DNA from: Phytohabitans houttuyneae | GTDB taxonomy: Bacteria > Actinomycetota > Actinomycetes > Mycobacteriales > Micromonosporaceae | DNA length: 64,000 nucleotides | NCBI RefSeq assembly: GCF_011764425.1 | Contig: NZ_BLPF01000001.1 | Location: 4,331,001 to 4,395,000 of the forward strand | Direction: 5' to 3' | Shown: positions 1 to 57,972 of the stretch, piece by piece | Numbering within the stretch: position 1 is the first letter of the stretch | How the letters are laid out: each line of letters opens with the position of its first letter | The notes under the pieces: generated by a model | The model's database searches: none | Seen by the model: the letters and a program-made list of their open reading frames with translations, nothing else | Told to the model about the DNA's origin: nothing | Position numbers and translations under genes: made by a program

Positions 1-638
1 GCCGGCCTTGACAAAGCGGGCGTCAGTGGAGCTTTCCGGCGCCGGGCTTGCGTCACCCGAAGGGTCTGCCTGCCCGCTGGGGTCGGCGGACGCGGACGAG
101 CTGGGCAGCGCAGTGCCCGGGTCGCCGTCGGATCCGCCCAGCTTGATCACGGCCGCCGCGCCGCCGGCAACCACCAGCAGCGCGAGCGCCACGATCACGA
201 AGATCAGCGCCCGGTTGCCCTTCTTGCGCGGCGGCGGTGGCACCGGCTGGCCCCACACCGGCTCGGTCGCGGGCGGCGGGTAGCCCCCGGCTGCTCGTAC
301 TGCCTGGTGGACGGGTAGCCGGGGCCCTGGTCGTAACCCGGACCCTGGTCGTAGCCACCGCCCTGCTGGTAGCCGCCGCCACCCTGCTGGTAACCGCCCT
401 GGTCGTATCCGCCGCGGTCATATCCCCCGCGGTCGTAGCCGCCGCCCTGGTCGTACCCCGGGTAGCCACCCGGCGACGTGGGACCGGCAGGTGGCGTCGA
501 CGAGGGCGTGCCTCCCCATGGGTCCGGCTGTCCGCCCCAAGGGTCGGACGGCTGCCCGTACGGCTCCTGCGGCTGATGCGGCTGCTGCCTCCCCCAGGGC
601 TCCTGTGGCGGGCCGGAGTAAGACCCGTAGTTCGACAT
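1..638 (-). CDS. Gly/Tyr/Gln-rich single-pass membrane protein (partial, frame broken)
   Basis: The gene runs off the left edge, so its C-terminus is missing. From the ATG at 638 it encodes a hydrophilic N-terminal half rich in Pro, Gly, Tyr and Gln (starts MSNYGSYSGPPQEPWG, then GYDQGG/GYQQGG repeats). After a frame break at the C5 run 284-288 the other frame continues sensibly: TEPVWGQPVPPPPRKKG, a hydrophobic membrane span (ALIFVIVALALLVVAGG) and a Ser/Pro/Asp-rich external linker ending at the window edge. One extra base in that run would join the halves. This is a common actinobacterial design: low-complexity cytoplasmic tail, one span, extracellular domain. Function unknown; the missing C-terminal domain would decide it. 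Confidence 0.7.
318..466 (-). repeat. In-gene tandem repeats encoding GYDQGG/GYQQGG units
   Basis: Short imperfect tandem repeats of about 15-24 bases encode Gly-Tyr-Asp/Gln-Gln-Gly-Gly units. They form a low-complexity tail and are prone to length variation and misassembly. Confidence 0.7.
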
Positions 639-737
639 GTGAACAGCCCTCCCGACACTGCGATGCTCCCGGTCACCGTAGCGTGGTGACCCCCTGGCCA
701 TACCTCCCGGAAGCGCGCCAATCTCCAGCGCATCCGA

Positions 738-3700
738 TCACAGGAGGCGCAGCTGGCGGTCTTTCGGACGTCGTGGACCGGAGTCGCCGAGACGATCGAA
801 GAGGCCGCCGTCGATCGCGTCCAGAAACGGGGTCGGCCGGGCCTCGCGCTCGGTGCCGAAGCGGGTGCGGCGGGAGGCGTGGCTGATGTACAGCCGGTCC
901 TGCGCCCGGGTGACGCCGACGAAGAAGAGGCGGCGCTCCTCGGCCAGCTCCTCGTCCGTCGCCGGCTTGCCCGGAAGCCGCATCGGCAGCAGCCCGTCCT
1001 CGCAGCCGACCAGGAAGACGACCGGAAACTCAAGGCCCTTCGCGGCGTGCAGCGTGAGCAGCGTGACCGCCTCGGCACGCGGGTCGAGCGCGTCCACCTC
1101 CGCGCCGGTGGCCAGCTGCGACAGGAAAAGCTCAAGGTCGTCGCCGCACCGCTGAGCGAGCGGGGTGAGCACCTCGACGGCCGCCCAGATGTCCTCCGGC
1201 GTGTTGGCCGCGGGCGCGTCGAGCGTTGGCGCGGTGAAGCGCTGGGCCAGAACCTGGCCGGCCAGCCGCACCCGGGCGGCGATCGAACCGCCCAGCCCAC
1301 CGGCGTGACGCAGCTCACGCGCGATGGCGCCGACGCCTGCCCGGTCGCGCAGCCGGTTGTGCGAGCGCTTCTGTACCGGGATGCCGGCGCGGGAGAGCGC
1401 CTCGATGACCGGCGCGGCCTGCGCGTCAGTGCGGTACAGGACGGCGATGTCGGAGAACCCGATCGTGGAGGCGCGACCGTCGATCCGCCCCGAGTCGAGC
1501 GAGCGGTGCGAGACGCCGCCGACCAGCTCGTCGACGGTGCGGCGGACGAAGTCGGCCTCGTCGCCGGCAGATCCCGCCGGGAAGAGGCCGATCAGCGGTG
1601 CCTCGGGGTCGAGCCGGGCGGGGTCCAGCCGCCGCCCGCTGACCAGGGTGGTCGGCGCGATCGCCTGCACCGCCGCCGCGACGATGGGCGCCGCCGAGCG
1701 GTAGTTGCGGGTCAGCCGCACCAGCCGGGCGTCGATGAAGTCCTGGGAGAAGCGCAGGAAGTAGGTGACGTCGGCGCCACGGAACGAGTAGATCGCCTGG
1801 TCGGGGTCGCCGATCGCGCAGAGGTTGCCGTCGGCGGGGCTGAGCAGCCGGAGCAGCTCGTACTGGGTCGCGTCGACGTCCTGGTACTCGTCCACGAAGA
1901 TCCAGCGCCACCGCGTGCGGTACGTCTCGACAAGCTCGGGGTCGTCGCGCAGCAGGGCCACCGGCAGCTCGACAAGCTCGTCGAGGTCGACGAGGTTTTG
2001 CTGGCGGAGCACCTTGACGTACGCGTCGTGGTCGTCGCCGGCCTCGGCCCGCGCCTCCGCCCGCTGGGCGTCGTCGGCCACCCCGAACCCGTCGGCGAGC
2101 CCGGCCGCCTCGGCGTGGTCGCGCAGGATCGCGAGGCCCAGCGAGTGGAAGGTGGCGACCGTGACGTCCTCGGCGACCGGACCGAGCAGCCCGTCGAGCC
2201 GCTCCCGCAGCTCCTCGGCCGCCCGCCGGGTGAACGTGATCGCCAGGCACTGCTCGGGATAGACGTTCAGCTCGGCGCAGAGGTACGCGATGCGGTGCGT
2301 CAGCGTGCGGGTCTTGCCGGTGCCCGGCCCGGCCACGATGAGCAGCGGCCCGCCGGGTGCGGAGGCGGCCACCCGCTGCAGCGCGTCGAGCCGGTCGAGC
2401 AGGCCGGTGCCGACCTCCTCCATGCCGGAGAGCATCGGCTCGAAGGGCTCGTGCGGCGACGCGGGCTGGGCGATGGGAGGCAGCTCCGCCTTCGGCGCGC
2501 GGCGCCGCTCCGGTGCCCTCGCCTGCTCGGCTTTGCGGCGGGGTGCCGGCTCGGCGGGGCGGCGCTGTGCGGGCACGGGCACGTCGAAGAGCGCGTCCGG
2601 CTGGTGGCCGTGACCCGCGCGGGGCAGCTCGTCCGGCTGGAAGATGGTGATCACGCCGTACTCGCCGTCGTATCCCGGCACGCGCCGCACCTGGCCCCGG
2701 CGCAGCCGCCCGATGGCCTCGGCCAGCAGCTCGCCGCCGGCCTGCCCGACGTCGGCCAGCGGCGTTTCGGTGAGGATGCGCAGCTCCGGGCCGAGCGCCG
2801 CGACGAGCGTGTTGACCTGCCCGTCGACGGTCTTGGAGCGCGGGCCAACCCCGTGGATCTCGCCGACGATCTGCGGCAGCGAGAGCAGATGGGTGACCTC
2901 CTTGGCACCGGGACGCGCCTCGGTGCGGTCGGCGAGGTCTTCCACCCGGCTGAGCACGCCCACGGTCAGCGGCTTTCCGCACTCCGGGCAGAGGCCGCCG
3001 GCCGCCCGGGTGCGATCAGGTTGCCAGTTGACGCCACAGGCGCGGTGGCCGTCAGCGTGGTACTTGCCCTCTTCCGGGAAGAACTCGATCGTGCCGTGCA
3101 GCCCGTCTCCGGTGCGCAGCGCCTCGCGGATGCCGAAGTAGTCACGCTCCGCGGTCAGTACCGTCGCCTCGCGGGCGAGCGCCGGCGGCGAGTGGGCGTC
3201 GGAGTTGGAGACAAGCTGGTAGCGGTCGAGGCTGGAGACCCGCCAGTTCATCTCCGGGTCGGAGGAGAGCCCGGTCTCCACCGCGAAGATGTGGTCGGCC
3301 AGGTCGGCGTAGCAGTCGGCGATCGCGTCGAAGCCCGACTTCGAGCCGAGCGCGGAAAACCACGGCGTCCAGATGTGCGCCGGGACCAGGTACCCGTCGG
3401 GGCTCGCCTCCAGCGTGATCTCCAGCAGGTCACGCGAGTCGAGGCCGAGGATCGGGCGGCCGTCGGCGCCCAGGTTGCCGATCCGCCCGAGTGCGGTGTT
3501 GAAGCGGGTCACCGAGTCGAGGTCGGGCAGGTAGATGAGGTGGTGCACCTTTCGCGTGCGGTCGTCGCGCTTGTAGATCGTCGAGATCTCCACGCTCAGC
3601 ATGAAGCGCACGGGGTCGGCCTCGGCCGCGCTGGCCAGCCGGGGCGGCAGCCGGCGGGCGATGTCACGCTCCGTCTCAGGGCTGAGCCGGTAGAGGCCCG

Positions 3701-3941
3701 GCTCGGCGGGGTGCAGCGTCTCGCGCAGGTGGTCGTGCCAGGCGGGGTGGGTGAAGTCGCCGGTGCCGAGCACGCTGACGCCCTTGCGCCGCGCCCACCA
3801 GGCCAGATTCGGAAGGTTCAGGTCGCGGCTGCAGGCGCGGGAGTACTTCGAGTGGATGTGCAGGTCAACGACGTACGGATTGCTGCCGGTCGAGCTGCCC
3901 TGAGGTGCAACGCTGAACGGAGGCACGCCGCATAGTGCCAT
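738..3941 (-). CDS. EndoQ-like PHP nuclease fused to UvrD-family helicase
   Basis: Predicted DNA-repair fusion of 1067 residues. Residues about 22-290 form a PHP-type metal-dependent phosphoesterase (VDLHIHSKYS, with the HxH pair H28/H30, and GTGDFTHP). Next comes a cysteine cluster (CGVNW...CPECGK, about 300-325) and a helical region, the order seen in DNA endonuclease Q, which nicks 5' of deaminated bases. A linker rich in Pro/Ala/Arg leads to an SF1 helicase from about 520: Walker A GPGTGKT near 535, DEYQD near 683, DPDQAIYSFRGAD, HAAKGLEFP near 965 and FVGVTRAQDRLYI near 1008. The ATG at 3941 is chosen because PHP homology begins shortly after it; no clear ribosome site is visible. The family match is from motifs; coupling nicking to unwinding is inference. 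It is followed at a distance by the upstream-truncated membrane protein, with no evident operon. Confidence 0.85.
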   Translation of the reverse strand: MALCGVPPFSVAPQGSSTGSNPYVVDLHIHSKYSRACSRDLNLPNLAWWARRKGVSVLGTGDFTHPAWHDHLRETLHPAEPGLYRLSPETERDIARRLPPRLASAAEADPVRFMLSVEISTIYKRDDRTRKVHHLIYLPDLDSVTRFNTALGRIGNLGADGRPILGLDSRDLLEITLEASPDGYLVPAHIWTPWFSALGSKSGFDAIADCYADLADHIFAVETGLSSDPEMNWRVSSLDRYQLVSNSDAHSPPALAREATVLTAERDYFGIREALRTGDGLHGTIEFFPEEGKYHADGHRACGVNWQPDRTRAAGGLCPECGKPLTVGVLSRVEDLADRTEARPGAKEVTHLLSLPQIVGEIHGVGPRSKTVDGQVNTLVAALGPELRILTETPLADVGQAGGELLAEAIGRLRRGQVRRVPGYDGEYGVITIFQPDELPRAGHGHQPDALFDVPVPAQRRPAEPAPRRKAEQARAPERRRAPKAELPPIAQPASPHEPFEPMLSGMEEVGTGLLDRLDALQRVAASAPGGPLLIVAGPGTGKTRTLTHRIAYLCAELNVYPEQCLAITFTRRAAEELRERLDGLLGPVAEDVTVATFHSLGLAILRDHAEAAGLADGFGVADDAQRAEARAEAGDDHDAYVKVLRQQNLVDLDELVELPVALLRDDPELVETYRTRWRWIFVDEYQDVDATQYELLRLLSPADGNLCAIGDPDQAIYSFRGADVTYFLRFSQDFIDARLVRLTRNYRSAAPIVAAAVQAIAPTTLVSGRRLDPARLDPEAPLIGLFPAGSAGDEADFVRRTVDELVGGVSHRSLDSGRIDGRASTIGFSDIAVLYRTDAQAAPVIEALSRAGIPVQKRSHNRLRDRAGVGAIARELRHAGGLGGSIAARVRLAGQVLAQRFTAPTLDAPAANTPEDIWAAVEVLTPLAQRCGDDLELFLSQLATGAEVDALDPRAEAVTLLTLHAAKGLEFPVVFLVGCEDGLLPMRLPGKPATDEELAEERRLFFVGVTRAQDRLYISHASRRTRFGTEREARPTPFLDAIDGGLFDRLGDSGPRRPKDRQLRLL

Positions 3942-3985
3942 GCCCGCATCACTTGGCGCGCGTTGCCACGCGCGCGTGACGCCCA

Positions 3986-5209
3986 CTACTGGCTGTTCAG
4001 CTCGACAAGGGTGACCTGTGGTGGTGCCCCGACGCGGACCGGCGGACCCCAGAAGCCGGCGCCGTTCGTCACGTACACCTTCGTGCCGTCGACCGTGCCG
4101 AGGCCCGAGACGATCGGCTGCTCCAGGCGGACGAGGAGGCTCCACGGGACCATCTGGCCGCCGTGGGTGTGCCCGGAGAGCTGGAGGTCGACGCCGTGCT
4201 TGGCGGCGTCGTGCGCCTGCACCGGCTGGTGCGCGAGCAGCACCACCGGCCGGCTGGTGTCCCGGCCGTCGAACGTCTTGGCGAAGTCGGGCCCGTCGTC
4301 GTACTCCTCGCCGGCGATGTCGTTGACGCCCGCGAGGTCGAGGCCGTCGATCTCCAGCCGCTCGTTGCGCAGCGGGCGGAGGCCGAGCCGGGCCACCTCG
4401 TCCACCCACTGCTGGTAGCCCGAGAAGTACTCGTGGTTGCCGGTCACGAAGTACGCGCCGCGGCGGGAGCGGAGGCGTTCGAGCGGGGCGGCGGCCGCGC
4501 CGAGCTCCTCGACGCTGCCGTCGACCATGTCGCCGACGACCGCCACGAGGTCAGCGTCCATCTCGTTGATCATGTTGACGATCCGCTCGGTGTGGCTGCG
4601 GCCGCGCAGCGGGCCGAGGTGGATGTCGGAGACCAGCGCGATGCGCATCCCCTCCATCGAGCGCGGCAGCTTGGCGAGCGGGATCGTGACCCGGTCGAGC
4701 TGGGGCGGGCCGAGGGCGCTGCGGATCCCGTACCCGGAGATGCTCGCGGCGGTGAGCCCGGCGAAGATGGCCGCTCCGCGGGCGAGGAGCAGGCGGCGGT
4801 CCGGGTTGTGGCCGGGCGGCGTTTCGGCCGGCGGCGCCTCCGGTGGCGGACCGCCGGCGCCGACCAGCGCGGGCTCGGGTGCCTGGGCGACGACCGCGGC
4901 GGCGGCCTTGCGCTGCCGGCGCAGCCAGAGCTTGGCGACCAGCATCGGGATCTCGAGCACGACCAGCACGACGATCAGGTAGAACATGACCGCCAGCCAG
5001 AGGTAGCCCGGCCAGGCCAGCCACCACTGGCCCGCACGGGTGCCGATCAGCGTCGCGGGCACGAGCACGCCCAGCGCGATCGCGGCCACGCCGCCGGCCC
5101 GCCGCCAAGGGCCGGGGCGGGTGGTGTCGCGGACCAGGCGCTTCCACAGGTACAGGTGGATCAGCCCGATCACGGCGAACGCGAACACCACGAACACGAT
5201 CACACCCAC
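3986..5209 (-). CDS. Membrane-anchored metallophosphoesterase (YkuE-like)
   Basis: A 407-residue calcineurin-like phosphoesterase. The N-terminal 115 residues carry three hydrophobic spans, and another lies near 150-170, so the enzyme is tethered to the membrane. Metal-binding motifs are intact: SDIHLG near 195, GDMVDG near 226, GNHE near 256 and LSGHTHGGQ near 345. Members of this family act on membrane lipids or nucleotides; the substrate here is unknown. The GTG start at 5209 lies seven bases after the moaD stop, so it is probably co-transcribed behind moaA-moaD, although no functional link to molybdopterin is known. The family call is firm, the substrate is not. Confidence 0.9.
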   Translation of the reverse strand: MGVIVFVVFAFAVIGLIHLYLWKRLVRDTTRPGPWRRAGGVAAIALGVLVPATLIGTRAGQWWLAWPGYLWLAVMFYLIVVLVVLEIPMLVAKLWLRRQRKAAAAVVAQAPEPALVGAGGPPPEAPPAETPPGHNPDRRLLLARGAAIFAGLTAASISGYGIRSALGPPQLDRVTIPLAKLPRSMEGMRIALVSDIHLGPLRGRSHTERIVNMINEMDADLVAVVGDMVDGSVEELGAAAAPLERLRSRRGAYFVTGNHEYFSGYQQWVDEVARLGLRPLRNERLEIDGLDLAGVNDIAGEEYDDGPDFAKTFDGRDTSRPVVLLAHQPVQAHDAAKHGVDLQLSGHTHGGQMVPWSLLVRLEQPIVSGLGTVDGTKVYVTNGAGFWGPPVRVGAPPQVTLVELNSQ

Positions 5210-5216
5210 GCTCTGC

Positions 5217-5471
5217 TCAGCCTCCGGCGAAAGGGGGAAGGACGTCGACGGTCACCCCGCTGGGCAGGGCGGCCCGGCGATCGTGGCACGCGACGCCGTC
5301 GACAAGGAAGCTGGCCGCCTTGAGCACGGTGCCGAGCCGCTCGCCCCGGCGGGTCGACAGCTCGGTCGCCAGGTCGTCGAGGCAGAGCCCGGCCGGTGCC
5401 AGCTCCTCGTGCACGCCGGCGGCCGCGCGGGCGCCGGCGAAGTACCGCACGGTGATCGAGTCTGCGCTCAA
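5217..5471 (-). CDS. moaD: Molybdopterin synthase sulfur-carrier subunit MoaD
   Basis: An 84-residue ubiquitin-fold protein of the MoaD/ThiS family. It ends in PPFAGG, the Gly-Gly tail that is thiocarboxylated to donate sulfur to precursor Z in molybdopterin synthesis. The usual length is about 80-90 residues. It starts five bases after the moaA stop, so the two are in one operon; MoaA makes the cyclic intermediate that MoaD and MoaE convert. MoaE is not in this window. ThiS is an alternative by fold, but the adjacent moaA favours MoaD. Confidence 0.9.
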   Translation of the reverse strand: MSADSITVRYFAGARAAAGVHEELAPAGLCLDDLATELSTRRGERLGTVLKAASFLVDGVACHDRRAALPSGVTVDVLPPFAGG

Positions 5472-5475
5472 GTCC

Positions 5476-6492
5476 TCACCCGCCGATCGCGGACATCGGG
5501 CGGGTGGGCTGGAGAAACTTCGGGTCGTCGATGCCGTGGCCGGCGCGCTTGGTCAAGGTCGCCGCGCGCCAGCGCCGGGCGATCTCCTCGTCGTCGGCGC
5601 CCTCGCGCAGCGCGCCGCGCAGGTCGGACTCCTCGGTCGCGAAGAGGCAGTTGCGCACCTGGCCGTCGGCGGTCAGCCGGGTGCGGTCGCAGTCGCCGCA
5701 GAACGGCCGGGTCACGCTGCCGATCACGCCGACCTTCGCGGGCGAGCCGTCCGGGGTGGTGTAGCCGTCGACCAGCCAGGTCTCGGCGGGCGCGCCGCCG
5801 CGCTCGGCCGGGTCGGGCAGCAGCGTGAACCTCTCCCGCAGTGCGGCCAGGATCTCCGCGGCGGTGATCATGCGGGCGCGGTCCCAGGCGTGCTGGGCGT
5901 CCAGCGGCATCTGCTCGATGAACCGCAGCTCGTAGCCCTCCGCGAGCGCGAACCGCAGCAGCGCCGGCGCCTCGTCCTCGTTGATGTCCCGCATCAGCAC
6001 TGAATTGATCTTGACAGGCGTGAGGCCGGCGGCCTGCGCGGCGGCGAGGCCGGCGAGCACGTCGGGATGGCGCTTGCGGTGGGTCAGCCGCTCGAACCGC
6101 TCGCCGTCGAGCGTGTCCAGCGAGACGTTGACCCGGTCGAGGCCGGCGTCGCGCAGCGGCCGGGCCAGCTTGTCGAGGCCGATGCCGTTGGTGGTCAGCG
6201 AGATGCGGGGCCGCGGTGCCAACTCGGCGACCGCACCCACGATCTTGGCGAGGCCCGGCCGGATGAGCGGCTCGCCGCCGGTGAACCGCACCTCGTCGAC
6301 CCCGAGCCGCTCCACCGCGACCCGCACCAGGCGGATCACCTCGTCGTCGGTGAGCACGGCCGAGTTGGGCAGCCAGGGCAGGCCCTCGACCGGCATGCAG
6401 TACGTGCAGCGCAGGTTGCACCGGTCGGTGAGCGAGACCCGCAGGTCGGTCGCCACCCTTCCGTACCGGTCGACGAGCCCCGCGGTGGTCAT
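5476..6492 (-). CDS. moaA: GTP 3',8-cyclase MoaA
   Basis: Radical-SAM enzyme catalysing the first step of molybdenum cofactor synthesis, rearranging GTP toward cyclic pyranopterin monophosphate. The 338 residues match the family length. The N-terminal cluster motif is C25-x3-C29-x2-C32 (CNLRCTYC). The second iron-sulfur cluster motif is FCGDCDRTRLTADGQVRNC in the C-terminal part. The protein ends in IGG, the conserved Gly-Gly tail of MoaA. It is first in the moaA-moaD-phosphoesterase run. A TAACGT -10 element six bases before the ATG suggests a leaderless transcript. Confidence 0.96.
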   Translation of the reverse strand: MTTAGLVDRYGRVATDLRVSLTDRCNLRCTYCMPVEGLPWLPNSAVLTDDEVIRLVRVAVERLGVDEVRFTGGEPLIRPGLAKIVGAVAELAPRPRISLTTNGIGLDKLARPLRDAGLDRVNVSLDTLDGERFERLTHRKRHPDVLAGLAAAQAAGLTPVKINSVLMRDINEDEAPALLRFALAEGYELRFIEQMPLDAQHAWDRARMITAAEILAALRERFTLLPDPAERGGAPAETWLVDGYTTPDGSPAKVGVIGSVTRPFCGDCDRTRLTADGQVRNCLFATEESDLRGALREGADDEEIARRWRAATLTKRAGHGIDDPKFLQPTRPMSAIGG

Positions 6493-6498
6493 CTCTTG

Positions 6499-6504
6499 AC
6501 GTTA
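6499..6504 (-). promoter_or_regulatory. Leaderless -10 element of moaA
   Basis: TAACGT sits six bases before the moaA ATG, inside a short inverted repeat (TTGACG / CGTCAA, 6497-6514) that could be an operator. Confidence 0.5.
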
Positions 6505-6509
6505 CCGCG

Positions 6510-7397
6510 TCAAGTGCGCAGCGCGGACTCAGCAGTTGCCCGGACGGCGGATCGGTACGCGCCGCCGAACAGGGCGGTGTGCACGAGCATGAGGTGCAGC
6601 TGGTGCACCGGCACCCTGGCCTGCCAGCCCTCCGCGAGCGGCCAGGCCTCCCGGTACGCGGCGAGCACACGGTCCAGGTGCGGCACACCTCCGAAGAGGG
6701 CGAGCTGGGCGAGGTCCGTCTCGCGGTGGCCGCCGTGTGCCGCGGGGTCGACCAGCCAGGCCCGCCCGTCAGCCGCCCACAGCACGTTGCCGGGCCAGAG
6801 GTCGCCGTGGATGCGGGCGGGCGGCTCGCTGCCGCCGTACCCCTCGATCCGCGCGACCACGTGCTCCACCAGGGCCACGTCGGGCGTGGAGAGCGCGCCG
6901 TTGTCGGTCGACATCCGCAGGTAAGGCAAGAGGCGGCGCTCGGCGAACCAGGCCGACCAAGGGCCGCCCGACGGGGCGTTGTCCGCGGTCAGCGCGCCGA
7001 TGAAGCCCGGCCACCGCGCTCCGAAGGCGTCCGCGCCGGCCCGGTGGGTGGCGGCGAGGTCGCGCCCGAGGCGCTCCGCCGCTTCCGGCGTCGCTTCGCC
7101 GGGCTCCACCCACTCCAGCGCGAGCAGATCGGGCAGCGCGGCGATGACCTCCGGCACGGGCGCTCCGCCGGCATCGCGCAGCCACCGCAGCCCTGCGGCC
7201 TCCGCTTCAAAAAACCCATTTGGTACCGGCTGCGCCGCCCCGCCCCACGACTTGGCGAACAGGGACGCGCCGTCGTCGAGCGTGAGCCGCGAGGCGGTGC
7301 AGATGCTTCCCCCGGGCACCGGCGTCTCCCTGATCCGCTGATGGGTCAGGAATGCGGGGAGATGCTCTGGATGCGCCCGAAGGTACGCGAGGTCCAT
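6510..7397 (-). CDS. Fructosamine kinase family protein
   Basis: A 295-residue aminoglycoside-phosphotransferase-fold kinase. It carries the fructosamine-kinase signature HGDLWPGN (catalytic Asp within it), followed by WLVDPAAHGGHRETDLAQLALFGG, where the Asp-Pro replaces the usual DFG and binds magnesium. The family phosphorylates sugar-amine adducts of glycated proteins or small amines, allowing their repair. The ATG at 7397 is preferred over upstream TTG/GTG codons because GTAAGAG lies about eight bases before it. It is transcribed toward moaA, with its stop 18 bases before that start, and is divergent from the GNAT gene. The family call is firm; the physiological substrate is not known. 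Confidence 0.88.
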   Translation of the reverse strand: MDLAYLRAHPEHLPAFLTHQRIRETPVPGGSICTASRLTLDDGASLFAKSWGGAAQPVPNGFFEAEAAGLRWLRDAGGAPVPEVIAALPDLLALEWVEPGEATPEAAERLGRDLAATHRAGADAFGARWPGFIGALTADNAPSGGPWSAWFAERRLLPYLRMSTDNGALSTPDVALVEHVVARIEGYGGSEPPARIHGDLWPGNVLWAADGRAWLVDPAAHGGHRETDLAQLALFGGVPHLDRVLAAYREAWPLAEGWQARVPVHQLHLMLVHTALFGGAYRSAVRATAESALRT

Positions 7398-10120: not shown

Positions 10121-11812
10121 ATGGGTTCGAGGAAAGGAACTGCACGGCGGATCTCGGTCACCGCGACCGCGCTCACCGCTGGCCTTGCCGGAGCGGCGCT
10201 GGCGGCGGTCGCCACCGGCATGGTCTCGATAGGCACGTGGGTGCCCGGCAGCGACGACGACACGCGGGCCGAGCTGGCCGGTTCGCGGAGCCGGGCGGGC
10301 GACGGCTACGGCGATCGGGGTGACCTCTTCGTCGTCACCCAGGACAACCGCCTCCACCGCTTCGACAAGCTGGGCAGCGGCCGCCAGGAGCTGAGCGTGG
10401 CGATCACCGGGCTGGCAGCCGGCGAAAGGCTCGTGGGCATCGACACGCGCCCGGCCAACGGCCAGCTGTACGCGGTGGGAAGCACCAGCCGCCTCTACGT
10501 GATCGACCCGGCCACCGGGGCGGCTGCCCAGGTCGGCGCCCCGTTCACGACCGCGCTCGCGGGCAAGCGGTTCGGCGTCGACTTCAATCCGACCGTCGAC
10601 CGGCTGCGCATCGTCAGCGACACCGGGCAAAACCTGCGCATCGACCCGACCACCGGCGCGGTCGCGGGCGTCGACACAGCGCTCAACCGCAGCGGCGTGA
10701 CATCGGCGGCGTATACGAACAGTGTGGCGGGTGCGACGTCCACCGCGCTGTACGACATCGACAGCAGCAAGGACGTGCTCGTGCTGCAGGGCACCAAGCC
10801 GGGCGTGATGCCGGCCGTCTCGCCCAACACCGGCCAGCTCTTCCCGGTCGGCCGGCTGAGCGTCGACGTGCTCGGGCTCGACGGGTTCGACATCGTGGGC
10901 GCGGCAAAGGGTGACATGTTCGACGAGGGTGACTACACCGCGCTGGCCGCCGTGCGGGTCAAGGGCGACGGCGACAACACCCGCCTGGTCCGCGTCGACC
11001 TGCGCACCGGCAAGGCGAGCCCGCGGGGCAAGCTGCCCAAGGGCGTGGTGGGCATCACCGCTTCGGCGGGCGAGGCCACGACCGTGTACGCGACGACGGC
11101 CCGCAACGACCTGGTCCGCTTCGACCGCGACTCGCTGAAGATCCGCTCGCAGCAGGCGATCACCGGGCTCGGTGCCGGTGAAAAGCTGCTCGGCCTCGAC
11201 GTGCGCCCGGCCAACGGCCAGCTGTACGCGCTGGGCAGCACCAACCAGATCTACACGGTCAACCCGCGCACGGCCGCCGCGACCGCGGTGGGCACGCCCT
11301 TCAGCGCGGATGTCTACGGCAGCGCGGTCGGCTTCGACGTCAACCCGGTCGTCGACCGCCTGCGCGTGGTCACCTCGTCCGGGCTCAACCTTCGCCTCGT
11401 GCCCGACACCGGCGCGGTGGCGGCGGTGGACAAGTCCCTGGCGTATGCGGCTGACGACCGCAACGCCGGCACCGGGCCGAAGGTGTCGCTCGCGGCGTAC
11501 ACCAACGGCTTCGCGGGCGCTACGGCCACCACGCTGTTCGACATCGACACCGGCATCGACGTGCTGACCGTGCAGGCTCCGCCGAATGACGGGGTGCTGC
11601 GCACGTCCGGCAAGCTGACGCTCGACGTCGACTCGGTCGGGGGCTTCGACATCGCCCCCGACGGCCAGGCGATTGCGGCGCTGTCGCGCTCCGGCGGCAG
11701 CCGCATCTACGCGATCGACCTTCAGTCCGGCAAAGCACGCCTGATCGGCAAGCTCGGCCGCGGCAGCACGTTGACCGGCCTCGCGGTGGCTCCGCGCGGC
11801 GTCCTGGCATAA
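10121..11812 (+). CDS. Secreted protein with two DUF4394 domains
   Basis: A 563-residue protein with an N-terminal signal or anchor segment (basic start, then about 24 small hydrophobic residues) followed by two tandem DUF4394 units, roughly residues 65-310 and 320-560. The copies share blocks such as GVDFNPTVDRLRIVSDTGQN and GFDVNPVVDRLRVVTSSGLN, and each has the ITGL...GE.L.G.D.RPANGQLYA opening. The sequence looks like a beta-propeller-type repeat fold facing outside the cell (inference). Function unknown. The start is fixed by a strong GGGAGGAAA ribosome site six bases before the ATG. A strong hairpin follows the stop. Confidence 0.85.
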   Translation: MGSRKGTARRISVTATALTAGLAGAALAAVATGMVSIGTWVPGSDDDTRAELAGSRSRAGDGYGDRGDLFVVTQDNRLHRFDKLGSGRQELSVAITGLAAGERLVGIDTRPANGQLYAVGSTSRLYVIDPATGAAAQVGAPFTTALAGKRFGVDFNPTVDRLRIVSDTGQNLRIDPTTGAVAGVDTALNRSGVTSAAYTNSVAGATSTALYDIDSSKDVLVLQGTKPGVMPAVSPNTGQLFPVGRLSVDVLGLDGFDIVGAAKGDMFDEGDYTALAAVRVKGDGDNTRLVRVDLRTGKASPRGKLPKGVVGITASAGEATTVYATTARNDLVRFDRDSLKIRSQQAITGLGAGEKLLGLDVRPANGQLYALGSTNQIYTVNPRTAAATAVGTPFSADVYGSAVGFDVNPVVDRLRVVTSSGLNLRLVPDTGAVAAVDKSLAYAADDRNAGTGPKVSLAAYTNGFAGATATTLFDIDTGIDVLTVQAPPNDGVLRTSGKLTLDVDSVGGFDIAPDGQAIAALSRSGGSRIYAIDLQSGKARLIGKLGRGSTLTGLAVAPRGVLA

Positions 11813-57104: not shown

Positions 57105-57965
57105 CTAGCGCACGAGCCGTGACAGTCTGCGATCGGCGAGAGGCTTTCCGCCGGTCTGGCAGGTGGGGCAGTACTGGAGGCTGGAGTCGGCGAACGACAC
57201 CTCCCGGACCGTGTCGCCACACACCGGGCAGGGCAGCCCGGTGCGGGCGTGTACCCGTAGACCCGAGCGCTTTTCGCCCTTGAGCTCGGCGGCGCGCTGC
57301 CCCACCGAGCGGGTCACCGCGTCCGTCAGTACCTCCCGCACCGCCGCGTGCAGCCCCGCCATCTGCTCGTCGGTGAGGCGGGTGGTGATCGCAAACGGGG
57401 AGAGCCTTGCGACGTGCAGGATCTCGTCCGAGTACGCGTTGCCCACGCCGGCCAGCACCTCCTGCGAGGTGAGCACGCCCTTGATCTGCCCCTTGCGACT
57501 GCGGATCCGCTCGGCGAACGTGTCGAGGTCGGCCGCGAGCGCGTCCGGCCCGAGCCGCGCCACACCGGGCACGAGAGCGGGATCCCTCACCAGGTACGCC
57601 GCCAGGCTCTTCTTGGTGCCCGCCTCGGTGAGGTCGAAGCCGGACCCGTCGTCGAGCCGCATGCGCAGCGCGATCGGCCCCTTGCCCGGCTTGAGCGGCG
57701 CGGGGCTGTTGAACGAGTCGCGGTAGTGCAGCCAGCCGGCGCGCGCCAGGTGCACCACGAGGTGCAGGTCGTCACCGATCCGCACGTCGAGAAACTTGCC
57801 GTACCGGCCGGCGCCGGTGATCTCCTGTCCCGCGGCCGCGGTCGGCGGCGGGTCGTACGTCTTGAGGGCGCTGAGCGCGGCGACCTCGATCCGCTCCACG
57901 CGCCGTCCAGCGGCCCGCTCGCGCAGGTACGCGGCGAGGGCCTCCACCTCGGGCAGCTCAGGCAT
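57105..57965 (-). CDS. Fpg/Nei-family DNA glycosylase
   Basis: A 286-residue bifunctional glycosylase/AP lyase that excises oxidised bases. The N-terminus PELPEVE carries the catalytic Pro2 and Glu3, the helix-two-turn-helix block is GVLTSQEVLAGVGNAYSDEI and the zinc finger is CPVCG...YCPTCQ near the C-terminus. The actinobacterial Nei2-like branch is likely. A TACCGT element seven bases before the ATG suggests a leaderless message. It is followed on the same strand by the polysaccharide gene. Confidence 0.93.
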   Translation of the reverse strand: MPELPEVEALAAYLRERAAGRRVERIEVAALSALKTYDPPPTAAAGQEITGAGRYGKFLDVRIGDDLHLVVHLARAGWLHYRDSFNSPAPLKPGKGPIALRMRLDDGSGFDLTEAGTKKSLAAYLVRDPALVPGVARLGPDALAADLDTFAERIRSRKGQIKGVLTSQEVLAGVGNAYSDEILHVARLSPFAITTRLTDEQMAGLHAAVREVLTDAVTRSVGQRAAELKGEKRSGLRVHARTGLPCPVCGDTVREVSFADSSLQYCPTCQTGGKPLADRRLSRLVR

Positions 57966-57972
57966 GTGACAA

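Follow-up and report, generated by a model that had tools for sequence, protein, structure and literature searches.

The EndoQ-UvrD fusion gene and its neighbourhood

The window analysed here, a 64,000-nucleotide stretch of the Phytohabitans houttuyneae genome, contains an EndoQ-UvrD fusion gene (window positions 738..3941, (-)) that runs from an ATG at 3941 to a stop codon at 738-740. As the preliminary description of this DNA had proposed, one uninterrupted frame of 1067 aa with 0 internal stops unites an EndoQ-type PHP module with an SF1 helicase, and the motifs of both halves are present. In the encoded protein, aa 23-440 form an endonuclease Q (EndoQ) domain and aa 513-1050 a UvrD-type SF1 helicase, with a variable linker between them. 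In comparisons with four relatives, both halves are under purifying selection, with dN/dS values of 0.17-0.24 for the EndoQ part and 0.20-0.32 for the helicase part; the linker gave 0.34-0.40. A literature search, with subscription-only papers outside its reach, found no paper describing an EndoQ-helicase fusion.

Upstream of the fusion gene, co-directional and 44 bp before it, lies a metallophosphoesterase gene (3986..5209, (-); PF00149). Of the 15 family loci compared, 9 have a match to it next to the fusion; it is a frequent neighbour, whose functional tie to the fusion is putative. The neighbouring genes encode the metallophosphoesterase, MoaA, fructosamine kinase, GNAT, DUF4192 and FdhD proteins, together with one ORF without a family. 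A promoter and terminator scan of window positions 1-7000 yielded nothing exceeding shuffles.

Fused frames are widespread. In the host family sample, 52 of the 61 genomes match EndoQ (TIGR00375), 49 of these 52 with a frame of 979 aa or more, and all 20 long frames retrieved from three other phyla carry the helicase; because these long fused frames are conserved, chance or mis-assembly of the fusion is excluded. EndoQ-helicase fusions occur in at least four phyla beyond that of the host. The earlier statement that EndoQ is known chiefly in archaea, with some bacterial cases, agrees with the literature but understates its distribution: within the phylum to which locus L121 belongs, for example, 161 of 247 genomes had an EndoQ match.

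The N-terminal half is an EndoQ domain

The N-terminal half (aa 23-440; 2622..3875, (-)) comprises a PHP catalytic domain, an HxxC/CxxC zinc ribbon and a C-terminal helical domain, delineated by phmmer, Foldseek and residue comparison. Profile search and structure prediction, both proposed in the preliminary description, matched this half to EndoQ by sequence and by fold. With phmmer, the PDB chains 5zb8, 7k30 and 7k31 were matched at E values of 1e-42 to 2e-43 (2.2e-43 for 5zb8, PfuEndoQ), and Foldseek superposed the predicted model on PfuEndoQ structures with TMt 0.87-0.89 and an rmsd of 2.4-2.8 Å (5zb8, TMt 0.87-0.89 and 2.4-2.5 Å; 7k30, TMt 0.88), the structural alignment showing 29% identity. 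The NCBIfam model TIGR00375 gave 134.3 bits for the fusion protein, under its curated cut-off of 326.6, a sequence-model threshold rather than a biochemical criterion, which was reached in none of the genomes sampled from the family or the phylum. The EndoQ identity, previously claimed from motif order, was borne out further by the predicted fold, the EndoQ-length match and the conservation of 11/11 published catalytic, recognition or motif positions; the extent then given (residues 20-500) is corrected at its end, the EndoQ part stopping near aa 440.

The HxH motif and CPEC cluster noted earlier are present as D26-L-H28-I-H30 and C318-P-E-C321. The catalytic residues D6, H8, H10, E76, H84, H139, E167, D192 and H194 of the Pfu enzyme correspond to D26, H28, H30, E118, H133, H189, E222, D248 and H250, and the first three positions are kept in 41/41 fused rows with letters (one further row is truncated). 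Mutants of PfuEndoQ in E76, H84 and H139 are reported to be inactive, and H139, G169 and S171 to serve base recognition and exclude T and A (PMC8307549). The equivalents of Pfu E76, H84, H139, E167, G169, S171, D192 and H194, among them the base-recognition equivalents H189, G224 and S226, are identical in 42/42 fused and 96/96 unfused bacterial EndoQ rows, the latter set including, here and in the motif counts below, the four with an adjacent helicase. The module previously described as zinc-cysteine retains CPEC, but its predicted zinc site is of the HxxC/CxxC type (H299, C302, C318, C321; HxxC...CPECG) and not made of four cysteines as in the EndoQ criterion CxxC...CPxCG. The first zinc Cys is replaced by His in 42/42 fused and 96/96 unfused bacterial rows, and therefore the predicted ligand set is unlike that of archaeal EndoQ.

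Sequence and predicted model together support the assignment of this half to EndoQ, and a PHP phosphatase unrelated to EndoQ was rejected on the conserved residues and predicted fold. By analogy with characterised EndoQ enzymes, its substrate would be uracil, hypoxanthine or an abasic site.

The C-terminal half is a UvrD/PcrA-type helicase

The second half (aa 513-1050; 792..2405, (-)) corresponds to an SF1 UvrD/PcrA-type helicase with a shortened 1B region (PF00580, PF13361 and Foldseek), scoring 216 bits with the Pfam UvrD-helicase model and a best Foldseek E value of 3.3e-35 against PcrA/UvrD. The complete helicase claimed earlier was confirmed in that all core motifs were found, with the fusion conserved: Walker A (GPGTGKT, 538-544), the DExQ motif (DEYQD, 684-688), GDPDQ (711-715), TLHAAKGLEF and the motif VI region, with their Walker A, DExQ, Q and motif VI residues. 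The PcrA equivalog model gave 369.6 bits against a cut-off of 911.2, and UvrD, Rep and the rest scored lower, none of the equivalog cut-offs being reached; on these scores the helicase half is a relative and none of PcrA, UvrD or Rep itself. Its 1B region spans 86 aa between two motifs, compared with 130-137 in the five measurable PcrA/UvrD/Rep-like rows. A shorter 1B region is also seen in most measured family members, the spacing being unmeasurable in 11 fused rows, 2 adjacent helicases and several outgroup rows, including the host genome's own PcrA-like helicase. UvrD/PcrA-type helicases move 3' to 5', and ATP-dependent 3'-5' unwinding is predicted by analogy for the fusion.

The description of the fusion as a self-contained deaminated-base repair enzyme was overstated. 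A Pfam scan of the fusion protein detected no polymerase, flap/exonuclease or ligase domain; other proteins must provide the polymerase, the ligase and the removal of the flap. Moreover, uracil-DNA-glycosylase-family matches occur in 61/61 family-sample genomes, host included, which rules out the fusion as a replacement for a missing uracil-DNA glycosylase. EndoV-family matches are present in 54/61 family genomes, namely in 47/52 EndoQ-positive and 7/9 EndoQ-negative ones (25/52 and 7/9, respectively, for matches above 200 bits); a partnership with EndoV through a paired cut is without support, as EndoV presence does not track EndoQ. Since glycosylase- and EndoV-family matches are widespread, the fusion need not be the sole route.

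The linker and C-terminus carry clamp-binding-like motifs

The two halves are joined by a disordered, faster-evolving linker (aa 441-505; 2427..2621, (-)), with pLDDT below 50 across aa 443-515 of the predicted model. At the point where unfused EndoQ proteins end, it contains a candidate internal clamp-binding motif, QPDALF (aa 447-452; 2586..2603, (-)), in which L451 and F452 are invariant in 19/19 fusions (alignment A1) and the Q is not conserved. A Q-xx(x)-LF-like motif is found in 26/42 linkers, against 13/169 windows elsewhere in linkers, and is absent in 16/42. By itself the evidence for QPDALF, a putative clamp binder, is weak.

The fusion protein ends in a clamp-binding-like motif, QLRLL (aa 1063-1067; 741..755, (-)), which the preliminary description had missed. 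A relaxed motif within the last 12 aa occurs in 37/40 complete fusions, 4/4 adjacent helicases, 78/96 unfused EndoQ and 32/1280 other frames; a strict motif within the last 10 aa occurs in 27/40, 4/4, 74/96 and 0/1280, respectively, the 1280 frames being a rough control with non-coding frames included. These counts omit five frames running off sequence ends (L102, L205, L027, L085 and L206), and the three complete fusions missing the motif are L035 (frame break), L196 and L198. QLRLL is a near match to the clamp-binding consensus QL[S/D]LF or QxxLF (PMC12309361), with the final F replaced by L, and QMSLL is the clamp motif of E. coli MutS (PMC8034640). In Thermococcus EndoQ, a C-terminal PIP box binds PCNA, which stimulates the enzyme, and clamp motifs have already been noted in bacterial EndoQ homologues (PMC4858679). 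The clamp-binding-like ending of the fusions is a new finding, as is the second such motif that 26/42 retain at the place where unfused EndoQ ends. QLRLL is likely to be a sliding-clamp tag, which suggests that the fusion works at the clamp.

A proposed nick-and-unwind mechanism and its alternatives

We favour, with moderate confidence, a role for the fusion protein as a clamp-tethered nick-and-unwind starter of deaminated-base repair, in which the substrate, the polarity at the nick, clamp binding and the order of steps are the parts that we infer. The EndoQ domain would flip uracil, hypoxanthine or an abasic site into its pocket and cut the phosphodiester bond immediately 5' of the lesion, leaving a 3'-OH and a 5'-phosphate, as shown for archaeal EndoQ and reported for the active Bacillus homologues (PMC6202378, PMC4357722). 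The helicase domain would then act at the nick on the intact strand and displace the lesion-bearing 5' flap; QLRLL, and perhaps also the linker motif left from the former EndoQ C-terminus, would bind the beta sliding clamp and hold the enzyme with the polymerase extending the 3' end, while other proteins would carry out flap removal, gap filling and sealing. Helicase-driven removal after EndoQ and EndoV cuts was proposed by the discoverers of EndoQ (PMC4357722).

Alternatively, the fusion may serve co-expression or co-localisation only, EndoQ starting nucleotide-incision repair with the polymerase displacing the strand alone and the helicase having a task of its own, for instance the removal of obstacles at forks or on DNA under transcription. 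We regard this as rather unlikely. In its favour, 72 of the 80 loci have neither a fusion nor a nearby helicase in the flanking DNA examined, and therefore a helicase is not generally required; helicase-free members (L207, L208, L222 and L223) lie among the fused rows of the EndoQ tree, indicating that the helicase can be lost. However, in this tree, built from 124 of 138 rows after near-identical family members, near-duplicates and one partial row were dropped, 30/30 fused domains, drawn from several phyla, share the same side of a supported branch, and this distribution speaks for a functional link. So do two Nitrospirota loci in which EndoQ is paired with a separate helicase of another lineage. 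Co-directional EndoQ-UvrD gene pairs, overlapping by at most 60 nt or separated by a few nt, were found at L060 and L092 (Nitrospirota), L121 (Desulfobacterales) and L211. At L060 and L092 both partners bear a clamp-like motif, and their helicases belong in the helicase tree to a different lineage from the fused ones, and so represent a separate pairing; we count this Nitrospirota pairing in favour of the nick-and-unwind mechanism.

A first, quick helicase tree had several long branches, and four of its outgroup rows were duplicates of fused or adjacent ones. The second tree, from which 22 of 66 rows (duplicates, AddA/RecB-like, long-branch and near-identical members) were dropped, placed the fused helicase across a supported branch from the sampled PcrA/UvrD/Rep-like rows, its deep branches being weakly supported. 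The truncated rows L027, L048 and L206 are in neither the EndoQ nor the helicase trees, and L102, L205 and L035 are also out of the latter.

A function in anti-phage defence, in which a nuclease-helicase would attack phage DNA carrying uracil or bases modified in other ways, by a Gabija-like logic, appears improbable. PADLOC GajB models match the helicase half (best 237 bits), and a review suggests that bacterial EndoQ may serve antiviral defence and notes that Ugi fails to inhibit the enzyme of B. subtilis (PMC8307549). Nevertheless, among the 25 of 48 PADLOC hits listed, the best stretches are confined to the generic UvrD part, and a Pfam scan of the seven neighbouring ORFs recognised no GajA nuclease gene or other defence gene. 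Besides, 52/61 family genomes have a match, and of the 15 family loci compared 12 have neighbours in common; both observations speak against such a role. None of 48 pattern matches in viral contigs encodes a relative; on this and on the neighbouring gene content a defence island was rejected. Among 1165 matches in plasmid records, none had 80% query coverage in one place, and the 20 listed correspond to the helicase half. Least probable, and already disfavoured, is a PHP-type phosphoesterase of function unrelated to EndoQ fused to a helicase, for which the low TIGR00375 score (134 bits against 326.6) and identity to PfuEndoQ could be adduced, but against which stand the near-full EndoQ-length match including zinc ribbon and C-terminal domain, the TM scores and the conserved catalytic and recognition residues tested.

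Tentatively, the nick-and-unwind mechanism might be extended to a putative two-handed clamp client, in which the linker and C-terminal motifs would both bind and could fill two sites of one dimeric clamp. Search, incision, unwinding and polymerase hand-over might then take place on one ring, as a replication-coupled, strand-directed long-patch repair not provided by glycosylases, by what would be an ancient bacterial machine in its own right that came together one time by fusion and a second time, in Nitrospirota, as an operon pair.

Available accounts treat EndoQ as archaeal, its bacterial members being scattered, and have left the step after the nick open since 2015. The natural joining of EndoQ to a helicase, together with clamp-like motifs, in several bacterial phyla indicates what the post-nick step can be, makes it testable with one purified protein, and suggests a one-piece tool to initiate the repair of decayed bases. 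It also suggests that incision-type deaminated-base repair is commoner in bacteria than the literature says, alongside glycosylases, including in GC-rich genomes like that of the host, in which a heavy burden of cytosine deamination is to be expected.

Comparison with known systems

Gabija GajAB likewise has a nuclease acting with a UvrD-type helicase, but it consists of two proteins with a defence function, GajA was not recognised among the seven ORFs scanned beside the fusion, and the GajA nuclease is unrelated to EndoQ. UvrD/PcrA/UvrD1-type SF1 helicases share the core motifs and fold (PF00580, PF13361), whereas the fusion's helicase is set apart by its position in the tree, shorter 1B region and C-terminal clamp-like motif. 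The EndoQ-UvrD gene pairs (L060, L092, L121 and L211) combine both predicted activities and carry a clamp-like motif on the helicase, yet as two separate proteins, with helicases of another lineage in Nitrospirota. EndoQ itself (PfuEndoQ PF1551, TkoEndoQ TK0887 and Bacillus pumilus EndoQ; TIGR00375, COG1379) shares the PHP domain, a putative zinc ribbon, the C-terminal domain, the tested residues and a clamp-binding-like motif at the protein C-terminus; the fusion protein differs in having a helicase, in His instead of Cys as first zinc ligand, and in the place of its terminal clamp motif, which comes after the helicase.

Domain architecture of the fusion protein

The EndoQ-UvrD fusion gene (738-3941, minus strand) encodes a 1067-aa product in which an endonuclease Q (EndoQ) domain (aa 23-440, placed by phmmer against PDB sequences) precedes a UvrD-type SF1 helicase (aa 513-1050; PF00580, 216 bits; PF13361, 108 bits). 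When residues 1-485 were compared with PDB sequences using phmmer, the archaeal reference PfuEndoQ was matched at E values of 2.2e-43 (5zb8) and 1.1e-42 (7k30 and 7k31), and no other PDB sequence matched up to E 0.1. The NCBIfam model TIGR00375 scored 134 bits on the fusion, and its curated cut-off was not reached. Confidence in an AlphaFold2 model built from 36 sequences (the window protein and related loci; mean pLDDT 78, pTM 0.51) varied along the chain: pLDDT exceeded 90 for the bulk of the EndoQ domain, dropped under 50 in the linker (443-515) and ranged mainly over 60-95 in the helicase, where residues 744-779 and 812-824 scored low. Foldseek matched this predicted model to 5zb8 with a TM of 0.87-0.89 (normalised by PfuEndoQ) and an rmsd of 2.4-2.5 Å. 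The preliminary description had read the N-terminal half as EndoQ-like, and these sequence and modelled-fold matches uphold that reading.

To compare individual positions, PfuEndoQ residues named as essential, involved in base recognition or part of conserved motifs (PMC8307549, PMC4357722) were mapped through phmmer alignments, and corresponded to D26, H28, H30, E118, H133, H189, E222, G224, S226, D248 and H250 of the fusion. When 42 fused and 96 unfused EndoQ domains of bacteria were aligned, the final eight positions of this list were identical in all 138 rows. D26, H28 and H30 were kept in all 41 fused rows with letters there, the exceptions among the 96 unfused rows being a gap at D26 in one and, at H28, Tyr in one and Gln in two. 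The predicted zinc site consists of H299, C302, C318 and C321, the first archaeal Cys being replaced by His in 138 of 138 bacterial rows; two unfused rows also carry His at C302.

The helicase half is a PcrA relative, yet it scores far under the PcrA equivalog cut-off. Foldseek matched its predicted structure to PcrA/UvrD (E 3e-35), but since the rmsd of the helicase matches was mostly 14-16 Å with all aligned columns counted, subdomain placement in the model is unreliable. The window fusion and 11 further members of its family have a 1B-region spacing of 86 aa; in the fusion loci L030, L032 and L033 it is 67, 49 and 143 aa, respectively, and the five measurable PcrA/UvrD/Rep-like rows gave 130-137 aa. 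Such altered spacing could affect regulation.

Distribution and conservation of the fusion

Within the host family, taken to be Micromonosporaceae (sampled genomes of 3.5-12.7 Mb), 52 of 61 genomes matched TIGR00375, 49 of them through frames 979 aa long or longer; of the three shorter frames, two sit on contigs measuring 4.1 and 3.0 kb. A helicase was confirmed in all 16 family loci checked (the window plus 15 loci). At L035 (genome G437), the helicase frame is broken near its end, around position 11000, by either assembly error or decay. Across the host phylum, 9 of 396 genomes matched, two of them weakly; two further families carry fusions (L024; L025 and L026), and one carries an unfused EndoQ gene (L028).

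A metallophosphoesterase gene adjoins the fusion in 9 of 15 family loci compared, and moaA, fructosamine kinase, GNAT, DUF4192 and FdhD genes lie nearby in many of them, with none of these neighbours within the stretch examined at L029, L030 and L033. The dN/dS values against four relatives (Nei-Gojobori) were 0.17-0.24 in the EndoQ domain and 0.20-0.32 in the helicase, compared with 0.34-0.40 in the linker; both enzymes are therefore kept. The window contains a second base-repair gene, encoding an Fpg/Nei-type DNA glycosylase (57108-57971, minus strand; PF01149, PF06831, PF06827).

Among the best 80 of 583 matches in a scan of genome contigs, three were fused (L087, Elusimicrobia; L102, Chloroflexi; L110, Fibrobacteres), in three EndoQ was immediately followed by a helicase gene (L060, L092 and L121) and two had one some kb upstream; the other 72, several on short contigs, showed neither a fusion nor a nearby helicase in the sequence available. 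Alignment searches matched 161 of 247 genomes in Thermodesulfobacteriota, the phylum of L121, with 62 frames of at least 850 aa among 150 matches listed. Corresponding counts were 54 of 118 genomes (two very weak) in the phylum of L092, with no frame above 516 aa among the matches listed; 21 of 120 in that of L110, eight with frames above 1000 aa; 6 of 301 for the L102 phylum, two fused; and 2 of 16 for the L087 phylum, one fused. A helicase was present in all 20 long frames examined. Of 20 non-long frames, L211 had a helicase gene directly behind EndoQ and L206 was cut by the contig; the remainder showed no helicase. In the 80 scan matches and the Thermodesulfobacteriota search, unfused EndoQ genes were widespread, occurring in Patescibacteria, Omnitrophota, Aminicenantes, Thermodesulfobacteriota and other bacterial groups, a range exceeding the handful of bacterial groups mentioned in the portions of the literature available. 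The fusion itself was not found described in the accessible parts of the open-access literature, and priority for it cannot be claimed.

Origin of the fusion

An EndoQ tree of 124 rows, built with a quick method and rooted at the midpoint, contained a branch (SH-aLRT 99) that separated all 30 fused rows, the operon-type L121 and L211, and L207, L208, L222 and L223 from the 88 remaining rows. In a reduced helicase tree of 44 rows, a branch (99) divided the 27 fused rows and L121 from the PcrA/UvrD/Rep-like rows, with which the Nitrospirota pair helicases and L211 were placed; a constraint uniting every fused row with both L121 and L211 was not rejected (p-AU 0.563). The trees are thus compatible with one fusion followed by later splits, short of proof. 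The Nitrospirota pairs L060 and L092 fall on the opposite side of that branch in the EndoQ tree and carry another helicase lineage, and on these phylogenies they represent a separate pairing.

L207, L208, L222 and L223 are helicase-free EndoQ genes amid fused rows, for which secondary helicase loss is the likely explanation. L207 and L208 carry a C-terminal clamp-like motif at the position equivalent to the linker motif. L220 and L221 (genomes G681 and G577, phylum of L102) share a long branch (1.35) in the EndoQ tree and lack a clamp-like C-terminus.

Clamp-like motifs

Clamp-binding motifs follow the consensus QL[S/D]LF or QxxLF, with two sites per clamp (PMC12309361), and QLRLL forms the C-terminus of the fusion. 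Within the last 12 residues, a relaxed motif was present in 37/40 complete fusions, 78/96 unfused EndoQ proteins and 4/4 directly adjacent helicases, against 32/1280 other frames with a length of 250 aa or more; for a stricter motif within the last 10 residues, the counts were 27/40, 74/96, 4/4 and 0/1280. The fusions missing the relaxed motif were L196, L198 and the broken L035, where another frame ends in RDRQLRLL. Furthermore, immediately behind the EndoQ domain, at the point corresponding to the C-terminus of unfused proteins, the linker carries a Q-xx(x)-LF-like motif in 26 of 42 cases, compared with 13 of 169 windows elsewhere in linkers. It reads QQSLF in several Thermodesulfobacteriota rows and QPDALF or QADTLF in the host family.

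The C-terminus of Thermococcus EndoQ mediates PCNA binding, and EndoQ homologues with clamp motifs have already been noted in bacteria (PMC4858679); a clamp motif on EndoQ is consequently not new. What this analysis adds is the position of a putative motif of this kind at the C-terminus of the fused helicase, and its occurrence on helicases encoded next to EndoQ.

Proposed mechanism

We propose that the fusion probably initiates deaminated-base repair by clamp-tethered nicking and unwinding. The discoverers of EndoQ suggested a helicase-driven removal step following incision by EndoQ and EndoV (PMC4357722). EndoV-family matches were present in 47 of 52 EndoQ-positive versus 7 of 9 EndoQ-negative genomes of the host family; since EndoV genes do not track EndoQ there, a single-cut, long-patch form is preferred. 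The match in the window's own genome (G000:C3:1487513-1487887) is weak, at 43 bits, and 32 of 61 family genomes exceed 200 bits.

UvrD/PcrA helicases have 3'-5' polarity, and UvrD displaces the strand when mismatch repair starts at a 5' nick. The EndoQ nick sits 5' of the lesion and leaves a 3'-OH and a 5'-phosphate (PMC4357722). The helicase, supplied in cis to EndoQ by the fusion, would start from this nick and run 3'-5' along the intact strand, and its movement would displace the lesion-bearing 5' end in a manner comparable to that of UvrD in mismatch repair.
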